From positions 29,944 to 93,943 of IMG/VR virus record IMGVR_UViG_3300023170_000013: 64,000 bases of DNA. One strand, given 5' to 3'. Under the pieces are notes generated by a model. The model saw only the letters and a list, made by a program, of their open reading frames with translations. It ran no database searches and had not been told where the DNA came from. Below are positions 21,269-41,958 of the stretch, one piece after another. The DNA comes from a virus. Both the position numbers and the translations under genes were made by a program. Position 1 is the stretch's first letter. Every line of letters starts with the position of its first letter.

Positions 21269-21787
21269 ATGATATTAGGTTTAGATGTTAGCACAAGCAT
21301 AACTGGAATTTGTGTACTTGACAAAGAAGAAAATATAGTTTATAATTCTGCTGTGGATACTAGAAAATACAAAAATATGTACGAAAAAGCAGAAAAAGTA
21401 AAAGAAAAGCTTAAAGAATTAAAAAAAGAATATGATATTAATAGCATTTATATTGAAAAGTCTTTGCAATCTTTTAGATCAGGCTTCTCCTCTGCGAAAG
21501 TTCTTTCAACATTATCTGCTTTCAACGGGATTGTATCTTGGTTCTGTTATGAGATCTATGGAATTTCACCAGAATACATTTCGGCTTCCTCCGCAAGAAA
21601 AGATTGCGGTATCAAAGTTCCAAAAGGCCAAAAGGCAAAGCCCTTTGTTTTAGGAGTTCTGGTGAAAGAAGGTCTAATAAATCCAGAATACACGAAAAAA
21701 GGAAATCCAAAACCTATTTATTACGATATGTCAGATGCGATTGTCATTGCAAAATCAGGATTTTTAAAAAGGAGAGCAAATAAATGA
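21269..21787 (+). CDS. RuvC-like Holliday junction resolvase (RNase H fold)
   Basis: A 172-residue protein with the layout of RuvC-type resolvases. D6 is in G-L-D-V-S-T-S at the first strand, E63 in I-Y-I-E-K-S, and D153/D156 in Y-D-M-S-D-A near the end. Together these would supply the acidic metal-binding residues that cut four-way junctions. In T4 the equivalent job is done by the unrelated gp49 (endonuclease VII), so here it probably resolves branched replicative DNA before packaging. It is the first gene of the DNA-metabolism block and overlaps the next gene by 4 bases. A related role in another RNase H-fold nuclease family cannot be excluded. Confidence 0.8.
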   Translation: MILGLDVSTSITGICVLDKEENIVYNSAVDTRKYKNMYEKAEKVKEKLKELKKEYDINSIYIEKSLQSFRSGFSSAKVLSTLSAFNGIVSWFCYEIYGISPEYISASSARKDCGIKVPKGQKAKPFVLGVLVKEGLINPEYTKKGNPKPIYYDMSDAIVIAKSGFLKRRANK

Positions 21788-22224
21788 AAATCACTAAAAA
21801 GCTTTTGATGAAGATCATCAAAGAAGAATTGGTTAGAGAAAGTATGAGCGATTGGCAGGCACACGACCGAAGAGAACGAGGTTTGCCCCCGCTAAAGGCC
21901 AATTACGACATTTCCAATAGTATCCCTCCTGATGGATATGTCCCGCCTCCCGAGCCCAAACTCGAAAACCCCCCTCCCCTTCCACCTGCGACAGAGCAAG
22001 ATCTGGAAAAAGGAAGAATGGTCAGTTTTGACGGCCCCTATGAACAACAGATTCATTTCTTGAAAATGCATAATCAATGGTTAAGAAGAGTGTATATGAA
22101 GCCTCGCGTAAAGGGCTACGAGAGCCTAAGCCGGCTTGAGCAACTTAAAGTCCTAGCCAACGGTCCCAATCCCGGTGCGGTCCACGCAGACAAGGGAAGC
22201 TTGGAAGACTACCCTCTGGCATAA
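21784..22224 (+). CDS. Proline-rich protein with N-terminal capsid-tag-like helix
   Basis: A 146-residue protein that begins M-K-I-T-K-K-L-L-M-K-I-I-K-E-E-L, the tag found in several unrelated proteins here. After the tag come a charged segment, a proline-rich region (residues about 50-75, with P-P-P-E-P and P-P-L-P-P) and a helical C-terminal part with no recognised domain. The I-K-E sequence in the tag fits a T4-type prohead protease site. The start overlaps the resolvase stop (ATGA), so it is co-expressed with the resolvase. Its function is unknown; a packaged virion-internal protein is my inference from the tag. Confidence 0.6.
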   Translation: MKITKKLLMKIIKEELVRESMSDWQAHDRRERGLPPLKANYDISNSIPPDGYVPPPEPKLENPPPLPPATEQDLEKGRMVSFDGPYEQQIHFLKMHNQWLRRVYMKPRVKGYESLSRLEQLKVLANGPNPGAVHADKGSLEDYPLA

Positions 22225-22237
22225 TAAAACAAATCAC

Positions 22238-22266
22238 TTGACAACACCCCCCATTCTTGATATAAT
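22238..22266 (+). promoter_or_regulatory. Perfect consensus sigma70 promoter
   Basis: TTGACA at 22238-22243 and TATAAT at 22261-22266 are separated by exactly 17 bases, the ideal bacterial housekeeping promoter. It lies in the gap before the primase gene (ATG 22296). It should be recognised by host RNA polymerase immediately after infection, marking the primase and recombination genes as early. Confidence 0.92.
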
Positions 22267-22295
22267 GTGTGTAACTTTTTCAAAGGAAACCACAC

Positions 22296-23219
22296 ATGAA
22301 AGAACTATCCATCCTTAAAAACACATTAGATTATGCTTACTCCAAAGGGAGCGAGCATCTTTTCTATTGTCCTTTCTGCAAGCATCACAAACCAAAAATG
22401 TCTGTTAACATCTCTAAAAACGTATTCAAGTGCTGGGTTTGTGACACAAGCGGTAAAAACGTCTATTACCTTCTAAAAAGATTTGGCTCATTTGATAATC
22501 AACAAGAATGGCTGAAGATCACAAATCAGATCGATGTTCGCGATTTTGAACTGATCATAACAGGTTCGACAGTCCAAGAAAAGATCAAACAAAAGATCGA
22601 TCTACCAAAAGAATACAAGCCTCTTTTTACAGGTTCAATTGACCTTTATTCTCAAAAGCCCCTGAATTATCTTAAATCAAGGGGTTTTTCGCAAGAAAAG
22701 ATCCTAGAATGGAAGGTTGGATATTGCCCATCAGGAGAGTACAAAGGAAGAGTAATCATTCCTTCTTTTGATGATGAGGGAGATGTTAGTTATTTTATCT
22801 CTAGAACATACGAAAAAGATTGGAAAAAGTACAAAAACCCAAAAGCATCAAAAGATATTGTATTCAATGACCTTTTGATTGATTGGGAAAAACCAATCAT
22901 CTTGGTTGAAGGTGTTTTTGATGCGATCCATGAAAAGAATATGATCCCGATCTTGGGATCAACCCTCTCAGAAAGATCAGACCTTTTTCAAAAGATTGTT
23001 GAAAAAGCCAAGAAGGTTTTTATTGCTTTAGATCCAGATGCTTACAAAAAAGAGCTTGACATTATCTCAAGTTTGATCAAATATGGAGTAGACGTTTGGA
23101 AAATAGAAGTTCCAGAAGGGAAAGATTTGAACGACATTTCAAAATATGAATATCAAAGACTAAAAATGACAGCAGTTGAAGTTAGATTTGATACTTTATT
23201 TTCAATGATTAACATATAG
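22296..23219 (+). CDS. gp61: DNA primase (DnaG/T4 gp61-like)
   Basis: A 307-residue primase that would make RNA primers for lagging-strand synthesis with the phage helicase. A zinc-binding domain is formed by C25-x2-C28 and C46-x2-C49. The TOPRIM catalytic part has I-L-V-E-G-V-F-D-A with E205 and D209, then A-L-D-P-D with D246 and D248 as likely metal ligands. The length is near that of T4 gp61. An AAAGGAAA ribosome site precedes the ATG and a perfect sigma70 promoter lies 30 bases upstream. It is followed after 9 bases by a small membrane protein and then the Mre11-Rad50 fusion. Confidence 0.9.
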   Translation: MKELSILKNTLDYAYSKGSEHLFYCPFCKHHKPKMSVNISKNVFKCWVCDTSGKNVYYLLKRFGSFDNQQEWLKITNQIDVRDFELIITGSTVQEKIKQKIDLPKEYKPLFTGSIDLYSQKPLNYLKSRGFSQEKILEWKVGYCPSGEYKGRVIIPSFDDEGDVSYFISRTYEKDWKKYKNPKASKDIVFNDLLIDWEKPIILVEGVFDAIHEKNMIPILGSTLSERSDLFQKIVEKAKKVFIALDPDAYKKELDIISSLIKYGVDVWKIEVPEGKDLNDISKYEYQRLKMTAVEVRFDTLFSMINI

Positions 23220-23228
23220 GAGACACAA

Positions 23229-23624
23229 ATGATTGAATTTTTGAAGCAACAAGGCGTTTATGAACTGGTTTGGTTTTTAGGTGGTATTCTAGCTTACATG
23301 ACTCTGCAATTTGTTGTAGGTGTAACACAAGCATTCAAGCTTATGAGGTCTGCAATGTATCTATCTCTTTCTTTTCTTTTGCAGGTTTATGTCGACACTA
23401 GACAAGAAATCCAAGAGCAAAAAGAAAGCTTCAAAAGAATGAATCCAGATTACACAGACTATGCTCTAGAAAAAGAGTTTGATAAAAGAGAGAAAGACGT
23501 TGATCTCTGGAGAGACAAGGCATTCAAAGAATTGCACGGATTATCTCCGGTAGTGTTTAATGCTGTAAGAAGTGAAATTAATGAAAAAATAGAAGAAGTT
23601 AAAAAGGGAGGTCTTAATGACTAA
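23229..23624 (+). CDS. Small membrane-anchored protein
   Basis: A 131-residue protein. Residues about 11-32 are hydrophobic (V-W-F-L-G-G-I-L-A-Y-M) and 40-53 form a second apolar stretch (A-M-Y-L-S-L-S-F-L-L-Q-V-Y), so one or two membrane segments are likely. The remainder is a charged cytoplasmic helix. A TAGGAG ribosome site precedes the ATG. It overlaps the recombination nuclease gene by 8 bases, so it is made with the early replication proteins. It may tether a complex to the membrane, but I recognise no family and do not assign a function. Confidence 0.6.
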   Translation: MIEFLKQQGVYELVWFLGGILAYMTLQFVVGVTQAFKLMRSAMYLSLSFLLQVYVDTRQEIQEQKESFKRMNPDYTDYALEKEFDKREKDVDLWRDKAFKELHGLSPVVFNAVRSEINEKIEEVKKGGLND

Positions 23625-26600
23625 GTTCGCTCACATCGCAGATACCCATATCAAAAACCTTAAATATCACTACGAGTATGATCTAGTTTTCAAGCAACTT
23701 TACAAAGAATTGAAAAAAGAAAAGCCAGATTATATCATTCATTGTGGTGATATTGCCCACACCAAGACCCAAATCTCACCAGAATTTGTTGAAATCTGCT
23801 CTGATTTCTTCAAGAACTTGGCAGAAATTGCACCAACTTATATTATCTTGGGGAACCACGACGGAAACCTACGCAATAAAAGCCGTCAGGATGCCATTTC
23901 TCCCATTGTAGATGCCCTAGGTATAGCTAACCTCCATTTGATCAAGAACGCGGCTAAAATAAGGCTTCCAGAGCCTTTTACGCTGAATGTGTTGAGCATC
24001 TTTGACGAAGACAATTGGGATCTAACACAAGATCTCGATCGCATCAACATTGCTCTTTACCATGGAGCAGTCAAAGGGTCGAAAACCGACGTTGGGTATG
24101 TGATCGAACACGGTGATGTTGAGATCAAAGATCTTAAAAAGTTTGATTATGGTTTTTTGGGAGACATTCACAAGACAAATCAGAAGATCGATCGCAAAGG
24201 GAAGATCAGATATGCTGGTTCGACTGTACAACAGAACTTTGGCGAGACAGATGACAAGGGTTTTTTGATTTGGGAGATTGAAGATAAGGACAAGTTTTCT
24301 GTTCGGCATATTCTTTTGGAAAACCCAAAACCTTTTGTTACAATTAAGCTAACAAAGAAAGGCAAAATTCCAAAATCCGCCAAGCCAAAGCCCGGCTCTA
24401 GGATCAGGTTGGTGTCTGAAAGCAACATCACGCTCGATGTCCTTAAAAAAGCCATTGAAGACGCTAAAATTGACTTTAAAGCAGAGTCTGTCACTCACTT
24501 GAGCAAAGCAGAATTGGCTAAAAAGAGCGTTGAACTGAAAGACAACGAGATTGAGAACCTTCGAGATGTAGAAGTCCAGAAAAAACTGATGAAAGAGTAT
24601 CTAGAAGAATTTGAAGTTGAAGATGACATTATGGACAAGATTGTAGAACTTAATGCAAAGTACAATTCACTGGTTGAAGGTAATGATGATCAGTTTCGCA
24701 ATTTAAACTGGAAAATGAAATCCATGGAGTGGGAAAACCTTTTCAACTATGGGGGTGATAACTCGCTAGACTTTGAAAAAATGAAAGGAATCATCGGGAT
24801 CTTTGGGAAAAACTACTCCGGAAAATCCAGCATTATTGACTCTTTTCTCCTAGGAGCGTTTAACACCACTTCAAAGCCGGCAAAGAAGAATATTTCCTTT
24901 ATTAATCAAAACAAGGAAGATGCTAGCATCGAGCTTAAATTTGACATTGGAGGAGAAGAGTACACTATTTCCAGAAGTATTGAAAAATACGTTAAAAAAC
25001 TGAAAGGAAAGACAACAGACGAAGCAAAAGTGAATGTTGATTTCTCTTATTTTGACCCTGCTGCGAAGAAAGTTGTAGAATTGAACGGAAACACAAGAGC
25101 AGAGACAGATAGAAATATTCGCAAATATATTGGTTCAATTGAAGATTTTCTGATCACATCAATGTCGGCACAGCATGGAGCATTGCAATTTGTGAACGAA
25201 GGCTCCACCAAGCGTAAGGAAATCTTGGCAAAATTCCTAGATTTGGTGTTTTTTGAAGAAAAATTCAAAGCAGCAAAAGAAGACTCCAGAGACCTTAAAG
25301 CTCTGATCAAAAAAGAAGAAGAAAGAAACTTTAAAGACGAGATTTTTGAACAAGAAAGCGCCTTAATCTATAATCAATTAGATTTGGATGAGAAGAAAGA
25401 ATGCTGTGATCTTCTGAAAGAAGAGAAGAAAGAAATGGAAAAAGAACTTTCTCTTTTAGAGCACAAAATCAAGTCAGTTCCAGCAAAAATCATCAACGTT
25501 GAAAAGTGTAGAAAAGAGTTGAAAAACTCAAATCAAATCTTGGAAACCTTGAAGTCAAGCCAAGCTGCGTTGGAAAGCCAGAAAGAAGAGAAAAGTGCTT
25601 ATTTGAATAAAATCAAAGAGTTCCTTTCTACTTTTGATCCGGAAGAATATTACCAATCTTACGAGGTCGGTAAAGAAAAAGCCAAGCAAGTTAAATTGAT
25701 CTTAAATGAGGTAAAACAAGAGGAAATCAAGAAGAAGATGGAAGAGAAAAAGATCTCTCTTCTTGATCAAGTTCCTTGTGGAGATCAGTTCAAAACTTGC
25801 AAATTCATTAAAGACGCTTTTGTGGCAAAAACAACAGTTTCAGAGTTGGAATTGGCACTAAAAGGACTTCAGAAGGAAAAAGAAGAAGCACAGAACTATA
25901 TTGACAGCGACGAATACAAGAAGGCAGAAGAGTATGTTCAAAACTACGAAAAATTAGTTGAGAAAAAGAACAAAGTTAACTCTGAATTGCTTAAGTTGAA
26001 GAACAAAGTGCTTCAGGGTCAAACTAAGGTTTCATCCACTGAAAGCATTATTTCTGAATTGAAGTCCGACATTAAAGAATACGAAGATAACAGAGAAGCA
26101 ATTGAAAACTTGGAAGCCCTAGCAAAAGAAAAAAAGCAACTTAAAAAAGACCTTAAACAAAAAGAAAACGAATATAACACCTGTGAAGCAGAATATATTC
26201 ACCTTCATACTGTTAAGGGACAAATTGAGCAAAAGCTGGAAACTGTCAAAAAAGAGGCAGAAGAATATGAAGAAAATAAAAAGAAGTTCGCAGCATATCA
26301 TTTGTTCATGACTTGCTATCATAACTCTGGCATCTCATATGAGATTATCAAGAAAAGGCTCCCAAAGATCAACGAAGAGGTTCAAAAGATCCTGACAGGA
26401 ATTGTTGATTTCGAAGTTTTCTTTGAAACAGAAGAAAAGAAATTGAATATTCTTATTCAACACCAAGGGCACGATCCTAGACCGCTAGAATTAGGCTCCG
26501 GAGCCGAAAAGTCCATTGCCGCCATGGCTATAAGGCTGGCTCTATTGAATGTCTCTTCTCTTCCAAAGAGTGATATTTTCATTCTAGACGAGCCGGGAAC

Positions 26601-26766
26601 AGCATTGGATGAAAGCAATCTGGAAGGCTTTACCAGAATACTTCAAATGATTAAAAACTACTTTAAAACTGTTTTGATCATAAGTCATATGGATTCTCTC
26701 AAGGACATTGTTGACTCGACAATTGATATTGACAGAGTTGACGGATTTGCGAGAGTAAATCAGTAA
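23617..26766 (+). CDS. Mre11-Rad50 single-chain fusion (T4 gp47-gp46 / SbcD-SbcC)
   Basis: A 1049-residue protein joining two normally separate subunits. Residues 1-250 are an Mre11/SbcD phosphoesterase with D9-T-H11, G-D45, G-N80-H81-D82, H149 and G-D-I-H near 182-185. Residues 380-1049 are a Rad50/SbcC ATPase: Walker A at G397-S404, a long coiled-coil pair about 560-910 with C721 and C728 at its tip, signature L-G-S-G-A-E-K near 959-965, and Walker B ending D991-E992. In T4 these are genes 47 and 46, needed for recombination-dependent replication and host DNA degradation. The fusion has no internal stop. It overlaps the preceding gene and is read from the early promoter region. Confidence 0.93.
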   Translation: MTKFAHIADTHIKNLKYHYEYDLVFKQLYKELKKEKPDYIIHCGDIAHTKTQISPEFVEICSDFFKNLAEIAPTYIILGNHDGNLRNKSRQDAISPIVDALGIANLHLIKNAAKIRLPEPFTLNVLSIFDEDNWDLTQDLDRINIALYHGAVKGSKTDVGYVIEHGDVEIKDLKKFDYGFLGDIHKTNQKIDRKGKIRYAGSTVQQNFGETDDKGFLIWEIEDKDKFSVRHILLENPKPFVTIKLTKKGKIPKSAKPKPGSRIRLVSESNITLDVLKKAIEDAKIDFKAESVTHLSKAELAKKSVELKDNEIENLRDVEVQKKLMKEYLEEFEVEDDIMDKIVELNAKYNSLVEGNDDQFRNLNWKMKSMEWENLFNYGGDNSLDFEKMKGIIGIFGKNYSGKSSIIDSFLLGAFNTTSKPAKKNISFINQNKEDASIELKFDIGGEEYTISRSIEKYVKKLKGKTTDEAKVNVDFSYFDPAAKKVVELNGNTRAETDRNIRKYIGSIEDFLITSMSAQHGALQFVNEGSTKRKEILAKFLDLVFFEEKFKAAKEDSRDLKALIKKEEERNFKDEIFEQESALIYNQLDLDEKKECCDLLKEEKKEMEKELSLLEHKIKSVPAKIINVEKCRKELKNSNQILETLKSSQAALESQKEEKSAYLNKIKEFLSTFDPEEYYQSYEVGKEKAKQVKLILNEVKQEEIKKKMEEKKISLLDQVPCGDQFKTCKFIKDAFVAKTTVSELELALKGLQKEKEEAQNYIDSDEYKKAEEYVQNYEKLVEKKNKVNSELLKLKNKVLQGQTKVSSTESIISELKSDIKEYEDNREAIENLEALAKEKKQLKKDLKQKENEYNTCEAEYIHLHTVKGQIEQKLETVKKEAEEYEENKKKFAAYHLFMTCYHNSGISYEIIKKRLPKINEEVQKILTGIVDFEVFFETEEKKLNILIQHQGHDPRPLELGSGAEKSIAAMAIRLALLNVSSLPKSDIFILDEPGTALDESNLEGFTRILQMIKNYFKTVLIISHMDSLKDIVDSTIDIDRVDGFARVNQ

Positions 26767-26773
26767 AAAGCAC

Positions 26774-26790
26774 CTATTTATATATAAATA
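26774..26790 (+). promoter_or_regulatory. T4-type late promoter (TATAAATA) overlapping a CTATTTATA element
   Basis: CTATTTATA at 26774-26782 runs into a perfect T4 late-promoter core, TATAAATA, at 26783-26790. It lies in the 42-base gap between the early Mre11-Rad50 gene and the accessory/lysis operon, 19 bases before the ATG at 26809. This is where an early-to-late switch would be expected. Confidence 0.6.
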
Positions 26791-26808
26791 TGTAAAAGGT
26801 GTCCAATA

Positions 26809-27228
26809 ATGATCAAGATTAAGTTCCTCAAAAAACTCCCCGTTTCAGGAGGCAAATGCCCTCCTGCCACACAAGATCTGAAACTAAACACCAAAAATAG
26901 AAACGCTTCAATTAAGGCAGAACACATCCAATACGGCCCTTTAAACCTATCTGACGAGGCTTATTGGGAAAGAGCCGCAGAACATTGGAACACCACTCCT
27001 GCCGTGGCTAAAAAGTCCAAATGCGGCAATTGTGTTGCTTTTGATATTTCACCTAGAATGGATGATTGTATGCCCGGCCCTGTGTCCGATAAGGATGGCC
27101 GTTTGGGTTACTGCTGGATGCACCACTTCAAATGCCACAGTGCGAGAACATGCTACACATGGGCAGCAGGTGGGCCAATCAAAGAAGACAAAGTTTCCCT
27201 TGAATGGCAAGAAAAGGGTGAAAAATAA
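26809..27228 (+). CDS. Conserved cysteine-rich protein, possible metal or Fe-S binder
   Basis: A 139-residue protein with seven cysteines (17, 72, 75, 87, 102, 109, 115). The motif block is C-G-N-C-V-A-F-D, M-D-D-C-M-P-G, G-Y-C-W-M-H-H-F-K-C and S-A-R-T-C-Y-T-W-A. The spacing suggests bound zinc or an iron-sulfur cluster. I recall close relatives of this block in marine T4-like phages, sometimes labelled high-potential iron-sulfur-like, but the function is unproven. It is the first gene after a TATAAATA late promoter and is coupled (TAATG) to the Lys-rich gene that follows, so a virion-associated role is possible. Confidence 0.65.
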   Translation: MIKIKFLKKLPVSGGKCPPATQDLKLNTKNRNASIKAEHIQYGPLNLSDEAYWERAAEHWNTTPAVAKKSKCGNCVAFDISPRMDDCMPGPVSDKDGRLGYCWMHHFKCHSARTCYTWAAGGPIKEDKVSLEWQEKGEK

Positions 27229-28499
27229 TGCCCTATAAGATCAGGAAAACAAAGTGCAAAAAATCAGATGGTTCTTCCGGAACTCACGTTGTTTATAAAA
27301 AAAGCGGTAAGCGTGTCGGATGCACAGATGAGCCAGAAGATTACAAAAAAGCTCTTTATGCAGCAGAAGTTAATGAAGTTTTGATCTTGGAAGATACGCT
27401 GTATAAAAACGTAGAAGATGACGTGTTTCTACACTTTACCTTGCGAGATAGAGCTTATAAGATCAGAGAAATGGGAGAATTACTTCGACAGCCCGAAGGT
27501 ATAGAGAAGTTTGGAACAGATACAATTGACGCAGTTTCTTTGATTTGGGGAGATTTTGTCCCCAAAGTGCAGACCAATCACCTAGGCGGCGAAGACATTG
27601 TAGCAATCATTTTCAAGACTGATGTGCCTCCAAAATATGGCTATGTTGAAGAGGTGAAATGGGACGTTGAAAGACTTCCTATTTACGATGTTAGGATTGT
27701 GCCTTTCGAAGAAGCAGTTCAAATGTTGAGAAATGCGCCTGAATATGTCGATGAAATGGATTATGTTCTTTACAAGGAAAATAAACAAATGAATATTGAA
27801 GACCTAAGTGCGATCATTCGAGAGGAAGTTAAGCTTGCACTGGAAGAAGCCAAAAAGAAGAAAAAGAAGAAGAAAAAATCTAAAAAGAAGAAGGGCAAAG
27901 ACGATCGCTGCACTCGTATTGCAAAAAGAAAGTATGATGTGTGGCCGTCAGCCTACGCTAGCGGCGCAGTTGTTCAGTGCCGCAGAGGAAAGATTTGGAA
28001 AGGTCTAACAGAAGAGAAGGAAATCACCCCAGAAGACAAAGAGACAATTTCTGATATTGTAGCCAAATTGAGAGCAGCATCGGAGTCTCACGCTCAAATG
28101 GCAAAAGATTTGGAAGATGGTGCAGCAAAGCTTGAAAAAGGTTCAGAAGCCCATTCTAGCCAAGCAGACAAATTAGAAAAGATGATCCAAGAAAGAAAAA
28201 AGAAGAAAAAGAAGTCTAAAAAAAAAGTAAAAACTGACTTCTCCAAAGAAAAGGACAAAGGCCTTCACGGTTGGTTTGAAAGGCAAGGTGGTAAAGGAAA
28301 AAGTAAAGGCTGGGTTGATTGTAATACTTGCCGAACAGACAAGAAAACAGGAAAGAAAACTTGTAAATCTTGTGGTCGTCAAAAAGGCGAGAAAAGAGCA
28401 AAATACCCCTCTTGCCGTCCAACCCCTGCTGCTTGTGGGACTGCTGGCAAAGGAAAGTCTTGGGGTAAAAAGTCTGCTAAAAAAGGAAAAAAGAAATGA
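27228..28499 (+). CDS. Lys-rich multidomain protein with DUF5872-like cysteine module
   Basis: A 423-residue, extremely basic protein built of modules. Residues 1-45 form a small basic Cys-containing unit (Y-K-I-R-K-T-K-C to K-R-V-G-C-T-D). Residues about 50-180 are a globular domain. At 188 a helix M-N-I-E-D-L-S-A-I-I-R-E-E-V like the tag of other proteins here is followed by a poly-Lys run. Next comes R-C-T-R-I-A-K-R-K-Y and W-P-S-A-Y-A-S-G-A, and last, from about 345, G-L-H-G-W-F-E-R-Q-G-G with C-N-T-C and C-K-S-C. The last modules resemble those called DUF5872 in aquatic viruses. It could bind packaged DNA; this is inference. Confidence 0.65.
   Translation: MPYKIRKTKCKKSDGSSGTHVVYKKSGKRVGCTDEPEDYKKALYAAEVNEVLILEDTLYKNVEDDVFLHFTLRDRAYKIREMGELLRQPEGIEKFGTDTIDAVSLIWGDFVPKVQTNHLGGEDIVAIIFKTDVPPKYGYVEEVKWDVERLPIYDVRIVPFEEAVQMLRNAPEYVDEMDYVLYKENKQMNIEDLSAIIREEVKLALEEAKKKKKKKKKSKKKKGKDDRCTRIAKRKYDVWPSAYASGAVVQCRRGKIWKGLTEEKEITPEDKETISDIVAKLRAASESHAQMAKDLEDGAAKLEKGSEAHSSQADKLEKMIQERKKKKKKSKKKVKTDFSKEKDKGLHGWFERQGGKGKSKGWVDCNTCRTDKKTGKKTCKSCGRQKGEKRAKYPSCRPTPAACGTAGKGKSWGKKSAKKGKKK
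27789..28499 (+). other. Possible internal translation start giving a tagged shorter protein
   Basis: Inside the Lys-rich gene, an in-frame ATG at 27789 is preceded by AAGGA with about 9 bases of spacing. The protein from this point (236 residues) would begin M-N-I-E-D-L-S-A-I-I-R-E-E-V-K, which resembles the N-terminal tags of neighbouring proteins and includes an I-R-E site. Either a second product is made or the tag sits between two domains as a protease site. The sequence does not decide between these. Confidence 0.35.
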
Positions 28500-29341
28500 A
28501 AATAAAGATTTTGAAAGAGATGAAAGGGTGCGGTGGTGTTTATGAAAGATGCCCACATTCCGGGTGCTCCCATTGCAGGAGTGAACACGGTCGAGATTTT
28601 GATAAGCACGATCACGAAGGTTCAATGGCAAGAACCAATCTTTGGAAAACCAAAAAGTATTGTGAAAAGTTATTAGATATGCTTAATGACAAAGATGATC
28701 TTCCAGAGTGGGTTGACGCAAAGATCACAAAAGCAACAGACTATCTTTCCTCTGTTAAAAGATATATGGCTGGTGAGATTGCCAGAGATCAGGGAATGCT
28801 TGAAGAAAGGCTTTCCGAAGGAATGAAATATCATATGGATAACAATATTACGATTGATAAAAATATTTATCGCATCCACTCTGACAACTTCTTTTCTCTT
28901 TTCAAAGAAGCAAGAAATCTTTGGAAAAGAGGTTTGGTTAATTTAACAGAAGCTGAAAGATATTACATCTCTGAAACTGAAATTGGAGAGTTTAGCATCT
29001 TTGAGGGCAAAAGAGTTCCATTGGACTTTCCAATGGTTGAGGAGTCTCTTTTGGAAGCAAAGTATAAAGGAAAGGATGTTAAACTTAACAAGCCACAAAG
29101 AGGTGGTTCCAAGAAGTTTTATGTTTACGTTAGAGATCCAAAAACTAAAAACATTCGCAAAGTTTCTTTTGGAGACAAAGGAATGTCTGTAAAGGTGGCA
29201 GATCCAGAGAGAAGAAAGTCTTTTGCAGCACGACATAAATGCAAGGAAAAAAAAGACAAAACAAAAGCAGGATACTGGGCTTGTCGTATTGGGCGCTACC
29301 CTCATCTAACTGGTTCAAAGAAAAGGTTTACTTGGTGGTAA
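28496..29341 (+). CDS. Two-module phage protein of unknown function
   Basis: A 281-residue protein, coupled to the preceding gene by ATGA overlap. The N-terminal module (residues about 1-95) has two Cys pairs near the start (C-G-G-V-Y-E-R-C, C-S-H-C) then L-P-E-W-V-D-A-K-I-T-K-A-T-D-Y-L-S-S-V, a helical pattern I associate with small marine phage proteins. The C-terminal module (from about 195) is basic, with K-K-F-Y-V-Y-V-R-D-P, V-S-F-G-D-K-G, R-K-S-F-A-A-R-H-K-C and G-Y-W-A-C-R-I-G-R-Y. The two modules look like a fusion of separately occurring families. I do not know the function. Confidence 0.6.
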   Translation: MKIKILKEMKGCGGVYERCPHSGCSHCRSEHGRDFDKHDHEGSMARTNLWKTKKYCEKLLDMLNDKDDLPEWVDAKITKATDYLSSVKRYMAGEIARDQGMLEERLSEGMKYHMDNNITIDKNIYRIHSDNFFSLFKEARNLWKRGLVNLTEAERYYISETEIGEFSIFEGKRVPLDFPMVEESLLEAKYKGKDVKLNKPQRGGSKKFYVYVRDPKTKNIRKVSFGDKGMSVKVADPERRKSFAARHKCKEKKDKTKAGYWACRIGRYPHLTGSKKRFTWW

Positions 29342-29342
29342 T

Positions 29343-29621
29343 ATGGAATTTCCTTTCAAAGAAAAGAAGTTAGAAAACAATATCGTGATCAGAGAGTTCA
29401 AAGAAAATGTTGATTCCGAAGAGCTTATCTGGCATAGAGATAGAGAAAACAGAGAAGTTACAATCTTGCAATCTTCTGGATGGCAACTTCAAATGGACAA
29501 TGAAATTCCAAAAACCCTTGAAGAGGGAAAAACTTATTATATTCCTGCTTTTGTTTACCACAGAGTGATCAAAGGCAGCGGCAATCTTATTGTTAAAATA
29601 AAAAAGGAAGAGATTAAATGA
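29343..29621 (+). CDS. Small cupin-fold protein
   Basis: A 92-residue protein with the pattern of a single cupin barrel: I-W-H-R-D-R-E-N-R at the first conserved strand, a central W-Q-L-Q-M-D-N, and G-K-T-Y-Y-I-P-A-F-V-Y-H-R-V-I-K-G-S-G near the end. The two histidines (H31 and the one in V-Y-H-R) are likely metal ligands. Small cupins of this type occur in T4-like cyanophages as I recall, with no proven substrate. It starts 2 bases after the preceding stop and overlaps the next gene by 4. Confidence 0.65.
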   Translation: MEFPFKEKKLENNIVIREFKENVDSEELIWHRDRENREVTILQSSGWQLQMDNEIPKTLEEGKTYYIPAFVYHRVIKGSGNLIVKIKKEEIK

Positions 29622-31435
29622 AGATGAAATTAATCATGGAAAGTTTTCGAAAAACAATGAAAGAATTCAAAGAGAGAGAAGGCAAAACAATGTCTTATGA
29701 TTCTTCTTTGGGTGGCTTTGTTGTTTCAAAAGAAGACTTGTCAAAAATCAACCAAGCAATCGAAAAGATCTACAAAGCATTTGAAGAAAGAACCGGAGGA
29801 ACTGCTGAAAATATCCCTAGGATTGAAGCAGAAGATCTAGAGCCTGTTGCGGGAGCTTTGAACGAATCGGCGGAACAAGGTGGGGAGCCCACCGAAGAGG
29901 AAAAGGATTATATTGCTCTACGACATTTTGGATACGATTCATGGAACGAATTGCCCGAAGAAGACAAAGATCTTGTGATGAGAAGGTTGGAGCTTTTCAC
30001 TTCGGGCGGCGAAATGAAGCAAACCATTGGAGCCGTTAGTGGCTTGAAAAAAGGTCTGGGACGTATGAGCCCAGAGGACTTTGAAAAAGGGGGATACGTC
30101 CTTCCCGTTTCCGCAGAAGTTCTGGAAGATTTTCAGGCTATGGTCAATGAATTGAAAGAAGGTGGTGAAGTCGATAGCCTTTTTGAAAAAGCTAGGGACT
30201 GGTATCATAAAATTAGAGATCTCCTCGATGAAGAAACTGGAAATGATCAAGACGCTACTTTGCTAGGTCTTCTTATTGCAACGTACAGCCCCAGAGCAAA
30301 GTTTGCTCTGAACTTGGCTGAAGCTGCTTTTATGTTCAAAGCAGTTGAAATGGATGCAAAGGACAACAAAGAGCTTTTGAGAGAATATATTAATATCTTT
30401 CCCGGTGGTAAAAAGAAAAAGCAGGGAGAATTTCGAGGGTTTACAAAGGCGCACAAAGTTCCAAACTTCACCCTGAACCTGATCGCCCCAGATTTGTCTG
30501 GTGGGCGAGATAAAGAAGGGAAAATTAGCTATGATGAGCTTTATATGTGGAACTCCACAATTGACACTTGGATGATTGACGCTTTTTATCCAAATGTCAG
30601 AGGTGTTACAACGGCAAAAGAATGGGAAAAGATCAAAGGCAAGATGATGGGTAACGTTGTTACTTATCGGTATATGGCAGGGTTGGTCGCACAGGAAGCG
30701 AAAAAACTAGGCCTCTTACCTCATGAGCTTCAAGCTATTGTGTGGGTTGCTTCTCAAATCAGAAAGACTGGAGAGAAAGGTCTTGGTGTCACTACTGAGT
30801 TTGCAATCAATCAAATTAAACAATCCATTGTCAACCTAGAAAAGATTAAAGAACAATTCAACGAAGAGGAAAGGATTAATAAGAAGTTGGTCGGACCATA
30901 CCTTAAAGAGTTGGATATGGACAAAGAATATACAGAACAGTTTGGAGATCAAAGCTGGCTTAAAGTTATTTTGGATAAGATTGAAACAGATGGTTTTGAT
31001 GAGGCTGCTGATTATATCTTAGGAATTAAAAAAGGAGACAAAACGGTTGTTCCCGGTGTGCGCTCTATCACAGCCTCTGGTAAGAAAGGGAAAGAACCAG
31101 ATCGCTTTAATCCTGTTCGCCCAGAGTTTAAACCAAAGAAAGAGAAGAAAGAAAAGGAAGAAAAGAAGAAGAAGCCAAAGGACACAAGATATCAAGACGC
31201 AGAAAAATATGGAGAACTTAAAACATTTTATGTTATGAATGAAGTCATTCAGATGCGAACCGGAAAGTTCAATAACCTTCACGACTCAATTCTTTTGTAT
31301 TTGAGTGATGATTTCTCTAAAGAAAAGGCTGTTGATTATATTCTAGGCAGGTTCGACTCCGAAGCAAAAGCCTCCAAAGATTATTTCATCAAAGAAAGCA
31401 AAAGAAGATTTGTTGTAAGGATTTTGAAATCATGA
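29618..31435 (+). CDS. Large accessory protein, phage family of unknown function
   Basis: A 605-residue protein that I do not recognise with certainty. The first 20 residues are a basic amphipathic helix (M-E-S-F-R-K-T-M-K-E-F-K). Residues about 200-400 are mostly helical, with L-L-I-A-T-Y-S-P-R-A-K-F-A-L-N-L, D-T-W-M-I-D-A-F-Y-P-N and L-P-H-E-L-Q-A-I-V-W-V-A. This order resembles a widespread uncharacterised phage family (possibly DUF7178). A Lys/Glu-rich low-complexity linker lies about 505-525. It is coupled by 4-base overlaps to the cupin gene upstream and the lysis enzyme downstream. Confidence 0.5.
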   Translation: MKMKLIMESFRKTMKEFKEREGKTMSYDSSLGGFVVSKEDLSKINQAIEKIYKAFEERTGGTAENIPRIEAEDLEPVAGALNESAEQGGEPTEEEKDYIALRHFGYDSWNELPEEDKDLVMRRLELFTSGGEMKQTIGAVSGLKKGLGRMSPEDFEKGGYVLPVSAEVLEDFQAMVNELKEGGEVDSLFEKARDWYHKIRDLLDEETGNDQDATLLGLLIATYSPRAKFALNLAEAAFMFKAVEMDAKDNKELLREYINIFPGGKKKKQGEFRGFTKAHKVPNFTLNLIAPDLSGGRDKEGKISYDELYMWNSTIDTWMIDAFYPNVRGVTTAKEWEKIKGKMMGNVVTYRYMAGLVAQEAKKLGLLPHELQAIVWVASQIRKTGEKGLGVTTEFAINQIKQSIVNLEKIKEQFNEEERINKKLVGPYLKELDMDKEYTEQFGDQSWLKVILDKIETDGFDEAADYILGIKKGDKTVVPGVRSITASGKKGKEPDRFNPVRPEFKPKKEKKEKEEKKKKPKDTRYQDAEKYGELKTFYVMNEVIQMRTGKFNNLHDSILLYLSDDFSKEKAVDYILGRFDSEAKASKDYFIKESKRRFVVRILKS

Positions 31436-32148
31436 AGATGGACGAAAAATATCCTCTCCTTCCACACGACGAAGAGATTTCAGATTGGCAATGGTGTATC
31501 AAAAAAGCAATCATTGATATTCACGCCAAAGCAATGCCTTATAAAAGAGGCACTTGGGGTGGTTCAACCGAAGACATTTATTATGACAAAAGAAGGATCT
31601 TGAGAAAAGGCGAAGGAACCTACTGTGTTGGATGCACTTCTGAAATCTTCTTCCGCGCTTGGAAAGAATTCACAGGGGATTACCTTGAAACACCAGAAGG
31701 CAACTTTACAGGCAAAGAAGCTTGGGAAGTTGCAAGAGCCTTTTTCTTTGCTTACAAAGACGAAGAGATTGACGGAATGCGAACAGACGAATTTGGAGCA
31801 ATGGGTTGGTTTAAATGGTTAGCAAACAGACCAGAACGCTTTGATTGGATTGAAACCTTCACAACACACAATCCTTATGAGATCCAATTTGGAGATTGGG
31901 TTTCAATGCAGTTTGCAGAAGATTATTCATCCGGCCACGCTACAGTGGGGTTGGGATTGGACAAGTACAAAGGCAATGATGTTGTCAACGTTTATTCTTC
32001 AACTACTTATTATGATAAAACTTGGATGAAAGAAAAGGGCGTTGAAAATCCCTACTCAACAGGGAACGGCTTTGATTATTACCGTTTAAACGTAACAAAG
32101 AGTGGATTTAAAAGAAAGTTCTTTGTTTCAAGATTAGTTCAAAAATAG
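31432..32148 (+). CDS. Putative NlpC/P60- or CHAP-like endolysin
   Basis: A 238-residue protein with a papain-like layout. G-T-Y-C-V-G-C-T-S-E-I-F (C65 or C68 as nucleophile) begins the first helix. Later G-D-W-V-S-M-Q (residues 154-160) and S-G-H-A-T-V-G-L-G with H169 form the strand pair typical of NlpC/P60 and CHAP amidases. These enzymes cut peptide or amide bonds in peptidoglycan. No signal peptide is present, and a holin-like gene follows within 10 bases, which supports a cytoplasmic endolysin released by a holin. The start overlaps the upstream stop (ATGA). The family is remote, so the activity is inferred. Confidence 0.6.
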   Translation: MKMDEKYPLLPHDEEISDWQWCIKKAIIDIHAKAMPYKRGTWGGSTEDIYYDKRRILRKGEGTYCVGCTSEIFFRAWKEFTGDYLETPEGNFTGKEAWEVARAFFFAYKDEEIDGMRTDEFGAMGWFKWLANRPERFDWIETFTTHNPYEIQFGDWVSMQFAEDYSSGHATVGLGLDKYKGNDVVNVYSSTTYYDKTWMKEKGVENPYSTGNGFDYYRLNVTKSGFKRKFFVSRLVQK

Positions 32149-32157
32149 GAGTTTAAA

Positions 32158-32469
32158 ATGGCTAGAAGAACAGCTTTTGTTGATAAATATTTATCATCGT
32201 TTATTTCAAAAAAGTTATTGGTTTGGATTGTCGCAACAGTCGTGTTTTTGACAACTGGCAATCTTAAATCAGGAGATTGGCTTGTGATCTCTGCTATTTA
32301 CATTGGTGGGCAATCTGTTATTGACGCAGTGAAAGCAATGAAAGGCTCGACCAATGTTACAACGAAAGTTGAAACAGCAGTGAAGACAATCTTGTCCGAC
32401 AAAGACAAGAAAGATGAGAAAGGGAAAGTTCCCCTTTCTGATACAACAGGCGATACGGTGACAAAATGA
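32158..32469 (+). CDS. Putative holin
   Basis: A 103-residue protein with two hydrophobic segments, about residues 19-34 (L-L-V-W-I-V-A-T-V-V-F-L) and 41-59 (D-W-L-V-I-S-A-I-Y-I-G-G-Q). A charged tail rich in Lys and Asp follows. Size, two membrane spans, charged C-terminus and position right after a peptidoglycan-hydrolase-like gene match class II holins. A TAGGAG ribosome site precedes the ATG and the stop overlaps the next start. The alternative is a structural membrane protein. Confidence 0.6.
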   Translation: MARRTAFVDKYLSSFISKKLLVWIVATVVFLTTGNLKSGDWLVISAIYIGGQSVIDAVKAMKGSTNVTTKVETAVKTILSDKDKKDEKGKVPLSDTTGDTVTK

Positions 32470-32879
32470 GTGAGATTTGGGCAGAGGTTAAAAGAAAGTG
32501 GACAGAGTCCAAATATTTTATAGCAGTTGTTTTTGTTTTCTTGACAGTTGCTATTTTTCTTTTGACGACCAGCGATGGTCAAAAAAGATTGAGACAAATC
32601 ATAAGGTCTTTGCAAAAAAGAAGAGAAGATGAATTGTACGAAATCCAAGAAAAACAAAATCAAAAAGAAAAAGAAAAGAAAGATTTAAAAAAGAAACATG
32701 AGAAGATTTTGGAAGAGATTGGAAAAGAATACAAGATTGGAAAAGAAAACGCCAAGAAAGAATACGACAAGAAGGTTAAAAAGATCTTGAAACAAACAAA
32801 GAAAGATCCTTCTCAGTTGTCCAAAAGATTGGCAGATGAATTTGGTCTTGACTACAAGGAAGATAATAATGAAAATTAA
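32466..32879 (+). CDS. Putative inner-membrane spanin-like coiled-coil protein
   Basis: A 137-residue protein with one N-terminal membrane span (residues about 18-36, F-I-A-V-V-F-V-F-L-T-V) and then a long Lys/Glu coiled coil to about residue 115. This is the architecture of Rz-type inner-membrane spanins, which fuse inner and outer membranes in the last step of lysis of Gram-negative hosts. It overlaps the holin-like gene by 4 bases and the tagged ArdA-like gene by 11. No lipoprotein partner is obvious within it; the product at 33419 is a candidate partner. Confidence 0.55.
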   Translation: MSEIWAEVKRKWTESKYFIAVVFVFLTVAIFLLTTSDGQKRLRQIIRSLQKRREDELYEIQEKQNQKEKEKKDLKKKHEKILEEIGKEYKIGKENAKKEYDKKVKKILKQTKKDPSQLSKRLADEFGLDYKEDNNEN

Positions 32880-33405
32880 AAAAAAACAACTCTTAAAAAT
32901 CATCAAAGAAGAGCTTTTAAAAGAAAACATACAAGAACTTTTTGCAACAATAAGACAGCTTATCAATGCCGGCCAATATGACAGGGCATATGCTCAAATC
33001 ATGGTGCAAATTGATGAAGACGATCCAAAGCACAAAATGGCAATTGATTATCTTGTTAGGCACAGTGGAGATGATTCGTATGAAGATAAGCTAAATAGTT
33101 GGCCTGATAGCGATTTTAGAAAATTAATTGCATATGGCTTTCTGCAATACGATCATGATTTTGATGACTTTCTGTCGAACTATGTCCAAGGTATCTTCGA
33201 AAGTCCCGAAGATTATCTTAAATATAGGTGGGAAGAGTACACTTGGGACATGATTGAGGAGCTTCCACTTCCCTCCGACATAGAACGTTATATCGATATC
33301 GAAATCAATTGGGCTATGTGGGCAAGAGACAGTGAGCTTAATGGCGAGTTTGCATCTTGGGAGCTTGATGGCGTTCCCGGAGTTTTGATTATATCCCCAG
33401 CATAA
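32869..33405 (+). CDS. ArdA-like antirestriction protein with N-terminal capsid-tag-like helix
   Basis: A 178-residue acidic protein. I chose the ATG at 32869 over an in-frame ATG at 32836 because AAGGA lies just upstream and the tag then starts at residue 1 (M-K-I-K-K-K-Q-L-L-K-I-I-K-E-E-L). Residues about 105-162 resemble the last domain of ArdA DNA mimics: G-I-F-E-S-P-E-D-Y, E-E-L-P-L-P-S-D-I-E-R-Y-I-D-I-E, then A-R-D-S-E-L-N-G-E-F. ArdA proteins block type I restriction enzymes by imitating DNA. The N-terminal ArdA domains are not visible, so this is a short or divergent form. The tag suggests it could be packaged and injected. Confidence 0.55.
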   Translation: MKIKKKQLLKIIKEELLKENIQELFATIRQLINAGQYDRAYAQIMVQIDEDDPKHKMAIDYLVRHSGDDSYEDKLNSWPDSDFRKLIAYGFLQYDHDFDDFLSNYVQGIFESPEDYLKYRWEEYTWDMIEELPLPSDIERYIDIEINWAMWARDSELNGEFASWELDGVPGVLIISPA

Positions 33406-33418
33406 GACAGGAGTAGAA

Positions 33419-33859
33419 ATGATTACCTTTAAACGCGTTTTAAGCACCATTCTAGCCACTTTCATCACAATTTCGCCCTGCTATGCCAATAAGTCCACAA
33501 GGCTTCAAAAAGGGGCAAAAGCGCCCTTTTCTGGAACGCTCTTGGATGATGAAGCGGTAGCAAAGATTTTGGCAAAACAAGATTACTTGAAAAAAAGCTT
33601 GAAGTTGGATTGTTCTTACCAAAGACAAAAAGAAAAAGCAAAGCTTCAATTGAAGATTGATCAATGCAAAGTAGATTTCAAAATTGAGAAAGAATTGAGA
33701 AAAAACTTAAGAAAGATTGATCAAGAAGAGATTACAAGATTAAGAAAGATTGCAAAGCCGCAAAACAATTGGACACCTCTTTGGATCACAATTGGCTTTG
33801 TTGCAGGAGCAGGAACAACAATTTTAATTCTTTATGGAATACAAGGAATTCAAAAGTGA
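33419..33859 (+). CDS. Secreted, C-terminally membrane-anchored lysis-region protein
   Basis: A 146-residue protein with a signal peptide at residues 1-23 (hydrophobic I-L-A-T-F-I-T-I-S then C-Y-A before N-K). A periplasmic part follows with A-P-F-S-G-T-L-L-D-D-E-A-V-A-K-I-L and a coiled-coil stretch containing two Cys. A C-terminal membrane span lies at about 119-141. The A-P-F-S-G-x-L-L-D motif is one I associate with lysis-region proteins of tailed phages. A role as spanin or spanin partner is plausible. It shares four bases with the next, tagged, gene. Confidence 0.5.
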   Translation: MITFKRVLSTILATFITISPCYANKSTRLQKGAKAPFSGTLLDDEAVAKILAKQDYLKKSLKLDCSYQRQKEKAKLQLKIDQCKVDFKIEKELRKNLRKIDQEEITRLRKIAKPQNNWTPLWITIGFVAGAGTTILILYGIQGIQK

Positions 33860-34311
33860 AGATCAAAAAAGAAACCATTTTCAAGATCATCAAAGAAGAG
33901 ATTGAAAGAGAACTTTCAAAAGAAGAAAAGCACAAGATTGTTTCTTTTGATTTTGATGATACCTTGACCTTTGCTCCTTTTGATCCGGAAGAAGAACATT
34001 CTGTTTACAAAGGGCCTCATGAGGAAATGATGAAAAAGATTAGAGGCTATATCGAAGATCCAGAAGTTACCGTTTATATTGTAACAAGCAGAAAGCAGGG
34101 CGGCATGGGACAAGTTAAAGGTTTTGTCGAAAAATATAAATTAAAAGTTGACGGCATTTATTGCACAGACGGAGATTGGAAAGCCCCCACTTTGAAAGAA
34201 TTGGGTGTAACTTTGCATCATGACGATGACAGTCAAGAAAATGAAAGAGCAGAAGCAGTAGGAATCCAGACAGTTCCAAGTGATCCATATGGCGATTACG
34301 GCACATTTTAA
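33856..34311 (+). CDS. HAD-family phosphatase with N-terminal capsid-tag-like helix
   Basis: A 151-residue protein. GTG at 33856 is chosen as start because AAGGA stands 8 bases upstream and the tag (V/M-K-I-K-K-E-T-I-F-K-I-I-K-E-E-I) begins exactly there; it overlaps the preceding stop (GTGA). HAD motif I is F-D-F-D-D-T-L-T (D32, D34), motif II is T77 in V-T-S-R-K, a Lys near 109 may be motif III, and H-D-D-D (123-125) is motif IV. Such small HAD enzymes dephosphorylate nucleotides or polynucleotide 3' ends, as in the T4 Pnkp phosphatase domain. The substrate here is unknown. Confidence 0.7.
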   Translation: MKIKKETIFKIIKEEIERELSKEEKHKIVSFDFDDTLTFAPFDPEEEHSVYKGPHEEMMKKIRGYIEDPEVTVYIVTSRKQGGMGQVKGFVEKYKLKVDGIYCTDGDWKAPTLKELGVTLHHDDDSQENERAEAVGIQTVPSDPYGDYGTF

Positions 34312-34338
34312 AGCAACAGGCCAATGGAGAAGTTATAG

Positions 34339-35133
34339 ATGAAAAGTCATAATAGCAATATAAAAATTAAAAAGAATCTTCTCTTCAAAATTCTGAAAGA
34401 AGAGATCAAAAAAGAATTTTTGAAAGAAGGTATTTTAAGGATTCAAGATTATATTTCAAATGAAAATTTGAAATTGATTGAAGATACGTTTCGCAACCTT
34501 TTAAATACATATTTAACTTCCGATAGAGAAGAAAGCCTTTATTGGAATGTTGAGAAATTTGAATTTATAAATGTTGCCGGAGAGGAGGAGGTTGTTGACT
34601 TGATGCTTTCCGTTGGTCGGCCACCAAGAGGAATGGAAGGGGCTGTTGCATATCTAGATGCTAGGCCCAGTATTGGCTATTACCACTTAGCAATGTGTGT
34701 GTTAAACAAGGAAGATTATGATATAGAGGACGGTATTGATACCATGATTAATCATGAATTAATTCACTTGATAGATTCAAAATATTTTAAACGAAAAGAC
34801 AGGAAAAAAGCTTACTTAGCTAGGCGAGAAGAAATTTTAGCTTTTTCTAGTCAGATATATAAACAGGTTGTTGACTTTTTAAATTCGGAAGATGAGCAGG
34901 ACAAAGATTATTTGAATATTTTGCTTAATCTTTATAAAGATGGTGCGATAAAACAATTACAATTATTTAAAGCTATATTAAAGACTAGTCAACAGCTTGG
35001 AGCGATAGGCAAAGATCCCAGATTTATAAAATCTATAATGCATCAGCACACAATGAAAGATAAGCAACCTTATTTAAAACATCTTTACAAAAAATTGTGG
35101 CCATTGATTCAAAAGAAACTTCAGGAGGTTTAA
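34339..35133 (+). CDS. HExxH zinc metallopeptidase-like protein with tag helix
   Basis: A 264-residue protein. After a six-residue extension, the tag reads N-I-K-I-K-K-N-L-L-F-K-I-L-K-E-E-I. Residues 139-143 are H-E-L-I-H in I-N-H-E-L-I-H-L-I-D, the zinc and catalytic motif of gluzincin-type peptidases. E164 or E165 in A-R-R-E-E-I-L-A-F is a suitable third ligand twenty-odd residues on. The C-terminal part is helical. Its substrate could be a host protein after injection or a virion component; neither is shown. It is followed by a coupled small zinc-binding protein (TAATG overlap). Confidence 0.65.
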   Translation: MKSHNSNIKIKKNLLFKILKEEIKKEFLKEGILRIQDYISNENLKLIEDTFRNLLNTYLTSDREESLYWNVEKFEFINVAGEEEVVDLMLSVGRPPRGMEGAVAYLDARPSIGYYHLAMCVLNKEDYDIEDGIDTMINHELIHLIDSKYFKRKDRKKAYLARREEILAFSSQIYKQVVDFLNSEDEQDKDYLNILLNLYKDGAIKQLQLFKAILKTSQQLGAIGKDPRFIKSIMHQHTMKDKQPYLKHLYKKLWPLIQKKLQEV

Positions 35134-35474
35134 TGAAAGATCAGAATTATGTTGTGAAAATGGAGAAAGCAATCTCCGAAAAGTGGGGTGCAGAGGCAAT
35201 TCAAAACCCAAAAGCAGGATGGGATCAAGAAAAAGAAAAAGAATATCTTGAACAGTTGAAAGAAAAAGAAAGAAAAAAGAGAGATTTAGAGAAAAAAGCA
35301 AAACAAAATCTTTCAAAAGTGGCAAGAGCGTGTCCTATTTGTGAACAAGACAAGATTAGTTCAAGGCACGATGTTTATTTCACAAAGTTTTCTTGTTGTT
35401 TTGATTGCTATGTGCAGTGGATTGAAGGTAGAGAGCAAAGATGGAAGGAAGGTTGGAGACCAGACAAAAAATAG
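35133..35474 (+). CDS. Small zinc-binding protein of unknown function
   Basis: A 113-residue protein starting at the ATG at 35133, just after CAGGAGG, rather than at in-frame codons upstream inside the previous gene. Residues about 60-110 hold C-P-I-C-E-Q-D-K-I-S-S-R-H-D and, further on, F-S-C-C-F-D-C-Y-V-Q-W, ending E-G-W-R-P. Two CxxC-like pairs would bind one zinc. The N-terminal half is a charged helix. I recall this C-terminal pattern from marine T4-like phages next to terminase genes, but no function is known. It ends the accessory operon. Confidence 0.6.
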   Translation: MKDQNYVVKMEKAISEKWGAEAIQNPKAGWDQEKEKEYLEQLKEKERKKRDLEKKAKQNLSKVARACPICEQDKISSRHDVYFTKFSCCFDCYVQWIEGREQRWKEGWRPDKK

Positions 35475-37653: not shown

Positions 37654-37656
37654 AAA

Positions 37657-41358: not shown

Positions 41359-41958
41359 ATGTCAAAGAAGTTGTTAACAGAGTTTTATGAATTATGCCCC
41401 AATGGGGTTTGCGAAGATATATTAACGGAATCGGAAAAAAGAATGGTTAGGGAGAACGGTGCTCTTTTTCTTTCTGGAGTGATCCAAAGAGCGGAGCATT
41501 TGAATGGTAATGGTAGAGTTTATCCCCGACCTATCTTACAAAGAGAAATGAGCACTTATCGTAAGCTGATCGAAGAAGGAAGAGCAGTTGGAGAACTGGA
41601 TCATCCAGACTCTTCTGTTGTGAACCTTCGTAATGTTTCCCACAAAGTTACTGACTGCTGGTGGGATGGTGATAATGTTTATGGAAAATTGCAAGTATTG
41701 AATACACCTTCTGGTCAAACTCTTCGCGCTTTGGTTGAAGGAGGTGTTAAGATTGGGATCTCATCGCGTGGATTGGGCTCTGTTGTTGAGTCTGCCGGTA
41801 GAACATTAGTAGAAGATGACTTCCAGCTTATCTGCTTTGACATTGTACAAGAACCTTCTACTTCTGGTGCTTTCCTTTTCCAAGAAGAAAAGCAAAGGCT
41901 TCATGAAAACAAAAATGTAAAAATCAATTCACTTTTAGATGACATTTTAAAGGGATAA
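41359..41958 (+). CDS. gp21: Prohead core protease (gp21-like)
   Basis: A 199-residue serine protease of the T4 gp21 (herpesvirus assemblin-like) fold. The catalytic His is H82 in V-G-E-L-D-H-P-D, the nucleophile is S135 or S136 in I-G-I-S-S-R-G-L-G, and an upstream G-R-V-Y-P-R motif is conserved in the family. It is packaged in the scaffold and, after prohead assembly, digests scaffold and trims the capsid protein and any tagged internal proteins at [I/L]-x-E sites. A candidate tagged protein follows 1 base downstream. Confidence 0.9.
   Translation: MSKKLLTEFYELCPNGVCEDILTESEKRMVRENGALFLSGVIQRAEHLNGNGRVYPRPILQREMSTYRKLIEEGRAVGELDHPDSSVVNLRNVSHKVTDCWWDGDNVYGKLQVLNTPSGQTLRALVEGGVKIGISSRGLGSVVESAGRTLVEDDFQLICFDIVQEPSTSGAFLFQEEKQRLHENKNVKINSLLDDILKG

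Follow-up and report, generated by a model that had tools for sequence, protein, structure and literature searches.

A shared N-terminal helix on unrelated proteins of Far-T4-type phages as a candidate capsid-targeting leader

Why should proteins with otherwise unrelated bodies begin with the same short helix? The question is raised by a 64,000-nucleotide (nt) stretch of viral DNA, the window of this analysis (nt 29944-93943 of the 93,943-nt viral contig of IMG/VR record IMGVR_UViG_3300023170_000013), in which an initial annotation had described a shared N-terminal tag on the products at 21784, 32869, 33856 and 34339. The tag is present on all four; it follows the pattern M-K-[IV]-[TSK]-K-x-x-L-x-x-I-I-[KR]-E-E, and its conservation ends near residue 22. 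The helix of about 22 residues is probably, at a rough probability of 0.78, a capsid-targeting leader that would load proteins into the prohead and would be removed by the S77 prohead protease of the same phage.

A tag on many unrelated proteins of one phage lineage

The tagged features of the window are listed below, with an arrow marking a presumed cut.

21784-22224, plus strand: tagged protein 1, 146 amino acids, proline-rich body, N-terminus MKITKKLLMKIIKEELVRE (tag nt 21784-21849)
32869-33405, plus strand: tagged protein 2, 178 amino acids, N-terminus MKIKKKQLLKIIKEELLKE (tag nt 32869-32934)
33856-34311, plus strand: tagged protein 3, 151 amino acids, putative HAD-like phosphatase, GTG start, N-terminus VKIKKETIFKIIKEEIERE (tag nt 33856-33921)
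34339-35133, plus strand: tagged protein 4, 264 amino acids, HELIH zinc-peptidase-like motif (tag residues 8-29, nt 34360-34425)
27789-27854, plus strand: internal tag MNIEDLSAIIREEVKLALEE↓A, residues 188-209 of the 27228-28499 product, overlooked initially

A tag profile built from relatives scored the first three proteins at 50, 48 and 40 bits, respectively; in the fourth the tag starts at residue 8 (IKIKKNLLFKILKEEIKKEFLKE) and scored 31 bits with the first residue ignored. The best spurious open reading frames (ORFs) of the window reached 14 bits and, next, 1 bit. Contig G010 (156,945 nt) contains the window collinearly (G010 nt 88476-152475, 99.99% identity), with tagged protein 1 as the same gene at 110259. 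Seven more tagged genes lie beyond the window span at 45-51 kb, one with pentapeptide-like repeats, and the total for G010 is about a dozen.

As tblastn of the short tag peptide against the phage collection returned no matches, DNA patterns were used instead. A degenerate pattern of 45 bases, covering the tag with its start codon, matched 116 stretches in IMG/VR and, with the window loci added, gave 128 matches, essentially all of them gene starts and each followed by a different body; an Arg-rich variant of the pattern matched 108 stretches. All loci together gave 655 non-redundant bodies from environmental phages (median 113 amino acids), far beyond the four diverse bodies described initially, and the tag is their sole common part. 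In an alignment of 143 tagged proteins only M1, K2, L8, I12 and E14 are nearly invariant. Each of ten large contigs, covered from end to end, carries 5 to 31 tags; 135 of the 136 tags lie on the prevailing strand, and the profile gave no matches on reversed copies of the ten related genomes. Internal tags occur in 19 proteins (for example L062, L359, L372 and L102), mostly as a second tag after the N-terminal one, as if tagged modules had fused.

A similar scan of bacterial and archaeal genomes (257 Gb) found nine stretches on just six contigs of metagenome-assembled genomes, which are likely to be misbinned phage; one of the six equals a known viral contig in length. The tag was found in none of 43 control contigs selected by ThyX, and since these controls include S77-positive phages, it is a trait of a lineage and not universal to S77 phages. 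It was not found by profile in the whole genome of Rhodothermus phage RM378, or in the 50 kb of Microcystis phage Mel-JY01 that were examined. The tag is widespread, in a large aquatic group of T4-like phages, and restricted to this lineage. Searches of the openly accessible literature for the tag sequence and for accounts of Far-T4 phages gave no mention of it, subscription papers being outside reach.

The prohead protease, the tag exit and a tagged head gene

The window encodes the following head module.

36055-39624, plus strand: large terminase-like gene (36055) and portal-like gp20 gene (37657), from gene order and product names in relatives
41359-41958, plus strand: gp21-type prohead protease (Peptidase_S77; PF03420 2.9e-30, phrog_207 4.3e-54), presumed tag remover
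41960-42355, plus strand: conserved head-module gene right after gp21 with a divergent tag, MKINLEKLKNIIRPIVKEVIEES (tag score 21.3 bits), overlooked initially
45509-46558, plus strand: putative gp22 scaffold, from its position before gp23 and its conserved C-terminus RWKRLAGI (nt 46526-46555)
46583-48382, plus strand: gp23 major capsid protein, matching T4 gp23* structures

The closest relatives of the major capsid protein belong to an uncultured large phage, Mel-JY01, Flavobacterium phage immuto and RM378. With a gp23-type capsid protein, an S77 protease and RM378-like near relatives, the window phage is, by sequence, a Far-T4-type myovirus.

An S77 prohead protease is encoded by every tag contig of 160 kb or more (22 of 22), compared with 7 of 13 ThyX-selected controls of matching size (Fisher p=0.001). 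In tag contigs without S77 the T4 portal was also absent in 36 of 37, and lay at the contig end in the remaining one; with the head module missing, these contigs look like fragments. The initial annotation had expected the tag to accompany a prohead protease, and no tag contig with the head module in view lacked one of gp21 type. An HK97-type capsid gene was found in none of 50 tag contigs. Apart from the core gene at 41960, tag genes in the neighbourhood of gp21 were not clearly above chance and were not used as evidence.

The end of the tag carries the signature of such a protease. The motif [LI]-x-E starting at residues 16-32 was observed 472 times against 184±11 in within-protein shuffles, a 2.6-fold excess; it occupies residues 20-22 in 192 of 653 proteins, and 64% of tagged proteins have it starting at residues 16-30 against 22% under the null. 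Over residues 16-32 neither [LI]-x-D (115 against 133 in shuffles) nor [AV]-x-E (155 against 169) is enriched. T4 gp21 is reported to have this same specificity: it cuts after L/I-X-E, and Asp at P1 inhibits its processing of IPIII (PMC9026906). The exit consensus is [LV]-L-[SKNR]-E followed by Q, S, A or G, and at P1' after the residue-22 Glu, Q is enriched 5.2-fold and S 2.4-fold. These flanks resemble the presumed gp23 maturation site of the same phages (LL[KR]E followed by A, S, T or Q), which is conserved as ELL[RK]E↓[ASTQ] in the region of the T4 gp23* N-terminus and reads QLLKE↓ASSM after residue 59 in the window (nt 46748-46759). In contig G006 (273 kb) a variant helix is longer by five residues (EEYSRLKRQGLLxE), and LLxE shifts along with it.

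The initial annotation had proposed cleavage at [I/L]-x-E within the tag. The enrichment bears out the motif, and I/L-K-E14 is present in all four window proteins, but the best-supported cut would fall at the tag exit, after E19-E22 (LL[KR]E↓[ASQ]), and not at I-K-E14. Two of the four have an exit [LI]xE: the 32869 product, with LLKE↓N at residues 16-19, and the 34339 product, with FLKE↓G.

The head itself shares a form of the tag. Members of the 41960 family lie 80-1,700 nt downstream of the S77 domain in 10 of 10 genomes and have the tag core at their N-terminus (for example MKKSELKNIIKECVKEVIFEEG and MNKSQLKKLIKPVVKECIQEVLIEEG); in the window protein a helix is predicted at residues 5-26 with moderate confidence. 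Because this tag form sits on a conserved head-module gene, the term effector, first applied to the whole tagged set, does not fit every member.

The cultured phage immuto has short tag forms on three genes (MKKSQLREIIRKEL, MKKSQLRQIIKEAL and MKKSELVKLIKEEL) and a weaker form two genes ahead of gp21 (MKKSQIVKAVQEVLEEMS); the 22-column profile missed the short form MKKSQLRQIIKEAL, which pairwise comparison of N-termini found. Two further N-terminal leaders are repeated in immuto, M..NFDLKKFLVENKLT.NS[KR][IL]LKE (nt 1803, 103806, 117631 and 118632) and MKKQILSEQF[KR]RMQxLAGIITES (nt 25061 and 111675; L398/L399/L181), each ending near an LxE-like site. One of these two, MKKQILSEQFKRMQFLAGIITES, includes the motif found at the end of the gp22 scaffold in the Far-T4 group, where the gp22-like C-terminus R[WMF]x[RK]LAG[IL] is kept in the relatives examined and takes a weaker form in RM378.

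The domain behind the internal tag of the 27228 product carries an N-terminal tag in other phages. In immuto (111184) it starts VGKVNKAYIENIIKEILSE-KKADRC and in L084 of contig G033 it starts MKITKTKLKKIIKEEFIQVLSE-KDDRC; the helix is shorter in immuto, and LSE directly precedes the orthologous domain in both. A 'structural protein' label on a cyanophage homologue of this domain (T4-GC0119) was considered as virion evidence and was not used, as the source paper calls the protein hypothetical. An L-T-E motif is kept near residue 25 of the protease (DILTE↓S in the window protein at 41359; L120-L146) and is possibly a self-cleavage site.

Predicted loading, cargo and rival explanations

If the helix is a capsid-targeting leader, tagged proteins would bind the assembling prohead core through it late in infection, and the helix may mimic the conserved tagged protein whose gene lies beside gp21. 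Closure of the shell by gp23 would enclose them, and the S77 protease would cut after [LI]-x-E at the helix end ([LV]-L-[KRSN]-E↓[QSA]), as in gp23 maturation. The freed cargo would stay with the DNA and most likely enter the next host together with it, and its varied bodies would act early there; an injected effector set is plausible. The best reading of the tag is that it would be a new capsid-targeting sequence (CTS) working like that of T4, and every sequence test run agrees with the original proposal of a targeting helix analogous to, but unlike, the T4 one, with packaging itself a prediction. A wider and distinctly tentative idea is that a general protein-delivery system operates in Far-T4 phages. 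An address copied from a conserved prohead protein would load tens of interchangeable proteins, some with export signals of their own and others as multi-tag fusions, the protease would free the cargo, and several address tags (three in immuto) would coexist, each matching another core component, such as the gp22 C-terminus.

Families recognised among the 143 cargos include pentapeptide repeats (six), one sigma-70, one SLT transglycosylase and one ParB-like nuclease (ParBc_2). The tagged protein resembling sigma-70 region 2 (L101:6843-7991, minus strand) may be a sigma factor that travels in the virion. A twin-arginine-like signal sequence follows the tag in L094:12360-13202 (minus strand) and L260:15444-16280 (plus strand) (RSRRDFLKGVGAAAA; GRREFLKKFGASAAG), an arrangement that would make most sense if the tag were removed first. 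Within the window, the ArdA-like label given to the 32869 product fell away at 14.7 bits against a Pfam gathering cut-off of 27; its single-sequence AlphaFold model was too poor to judge the fold (predicted local distance difference test 38), and a search for relatives returned the same phage only. The HAD phosphatase at 33856 retains weak matches (5-nucleotidase at 18.8 bits, below the cut-off; phrog_1238 at 2.3e-7), and the HExxH peptidase at 34339, a product with no relative in the phage collection, has the motif HELIH as its sole basis.

Several observations weigh against loading and injection. The 21784 and 33856 products have the internal IKE only and no exit site, and 36% of tagged proteins have no [LI]xE starting at residues 16-30. 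An amphipathic helix rich in Leu and Glu goes some way to explaining the Leu at residues 16 and 19-20 but leaves the Glu/Asp and Leu/Val contrasts at the exit unexplained, and the within-protein shuffle ignores helix periodicity. The S77 control sample is small (13), and no virion proteomics was found for tag-bearing phages. Most of the 143 cargos are without recognised function, and PADLOC gave weak matches only among them, with no clear anti-defence enrichment. The bodies are mostly acidic (median isoelectric point 4.7, with 16% above 8), whereas T4-type internal proteins are described as basic (PMC9026906).

That acidity is closer to scaffold than to DNA-bound internal proteins, and would suit a tag that targets the prohead but marks structural or core proteins for head building and maturation, later degraded or retained and not injected. 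In T4, gp21 breaks the core proteins gp22, gp67 and gp68 down into fragments (PMC9026906), and the tag form on the conserved gene beside gp21 points the same way. This explanation is nevertheless rather unlikely, as up to 31 tags per genome with no common bodies, and enzyme-like bodies (HAD, sigma-70, SLT, ParBc_2 and the zinc-peptidase motif), are a better fit to variable delivered cargo than to building parts. The helix could also dock onto another partner, such as a host complex, the membrane, a chaperone or the tail, with LxE merely a product of amphipathic helix design. The predicted helix (low confidence) with its Leu-rich register would allow this, as would the fact that packaging is deduced, but the exit is enriched for Glu and not Asp and for Leu/Ile and not Ala/Val, the P1' choice echoes gp23, the tag accompanies S77 heads and is common to a head gene, and the variant with five extra residues retains LLxE at its own exit. 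Docking elsewhere is accordingly judged improbable.

The tags could, finally, be a passive by-product, either of paralogues from one ancestor whose bodies have diverged or of DNA that seeds recombination. Clusters of consecutive tagged genes, such as the 21 tagged starts within 47.9-57.8 kb of the 293-kb contig G048, are in keeping with this, and the tags are alike in DNA, as noted initially, the same codon being used slightly more often than expected (0.49-0.61 against 0.41-0.50 from codon usage). Synonymous codons, however, vary nearly to the limit set by codon usage while the protein motif is held, so that the peptide and not the DNA is conserved and selected, and the likeness in DNA is mostly a by-product of protein conservation. 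Unrelated known folds among the bodies and the 19 cases of tags inside longer proteins also argue against a passive origin, which is very improbable.

The window has two further features. A T4 late-promoter-like TATAAATA, a perfect match at 26783-26790, stands immediately ahead of the gene run 26809-35474, which includes three tagged genes; seven late-promoter matches occur in the window against 2.2 expected, and the match upstream of 26809 is suggestive only. The 28496-29341 product has a C-terminal domain (about residues 185-264) that is found again in marine Pelagibacter and Roseobacter phages, which are unrelated and some of which have small genomes.

Should the tag prove to be a capsid-targeting leader, a single motif would mark hundreds of anonymous ORFs in abundant aquatic phages as predicted virion cargo and would date the action of that cargo to the first minutes of infection. 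T4-style loading of internal proteins would be no coliphage oddity but a means of delivery in wide use, bringing as many as 31 payloads in one phage, and a new address peptide, unlike that of T4, would be available for putting chosen proteins into phage heads. The short tag form in the cultured phage immuto makes the question testable now.

Comparison with known systems

The 41960 family is like the T4 core proteins gp67 and gp68, which gp21 cuts, in lying in the head module beside the protease, a likeness of gene neighbourhood only. The tag is similar in length to the N-terminal propeptides of SPN3US gp45 and gp225 (20 and 24 residues), which the prohead protease removes from head proteins (PMC10052503). 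The SPN3US protease differs in its motif, AxE and not [LI]xE, and in having few known substrates, and the part of that account drawn on here describes no tag across many unrelated proteins (PMC10052503).

As with the CTS of T4 IPI-III and the leader of Alt, a short N-terminal leader stands here on unrelated bodies (655) that form a variable cargo set, a gp21-type S77 protease is encoded by the same phage (41359 in the window; 22 of 22 tag contigs that reach 160 kb), and the leader ends in L/I-x-E with Asp disfavoured at P1. The present tag differs in sequence and in length, at about 22 residues against the 10 of the T4 leader. Up to 31 tagged genes per genome, a divergent form on the conserved gene beside gp21, and a mostly acidic cargo whose packaging is predicted from sequence also set it apart. 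In T4, as among the tagged proteins described here, the leader is the only part that the internal proteins share (PMC3012670).

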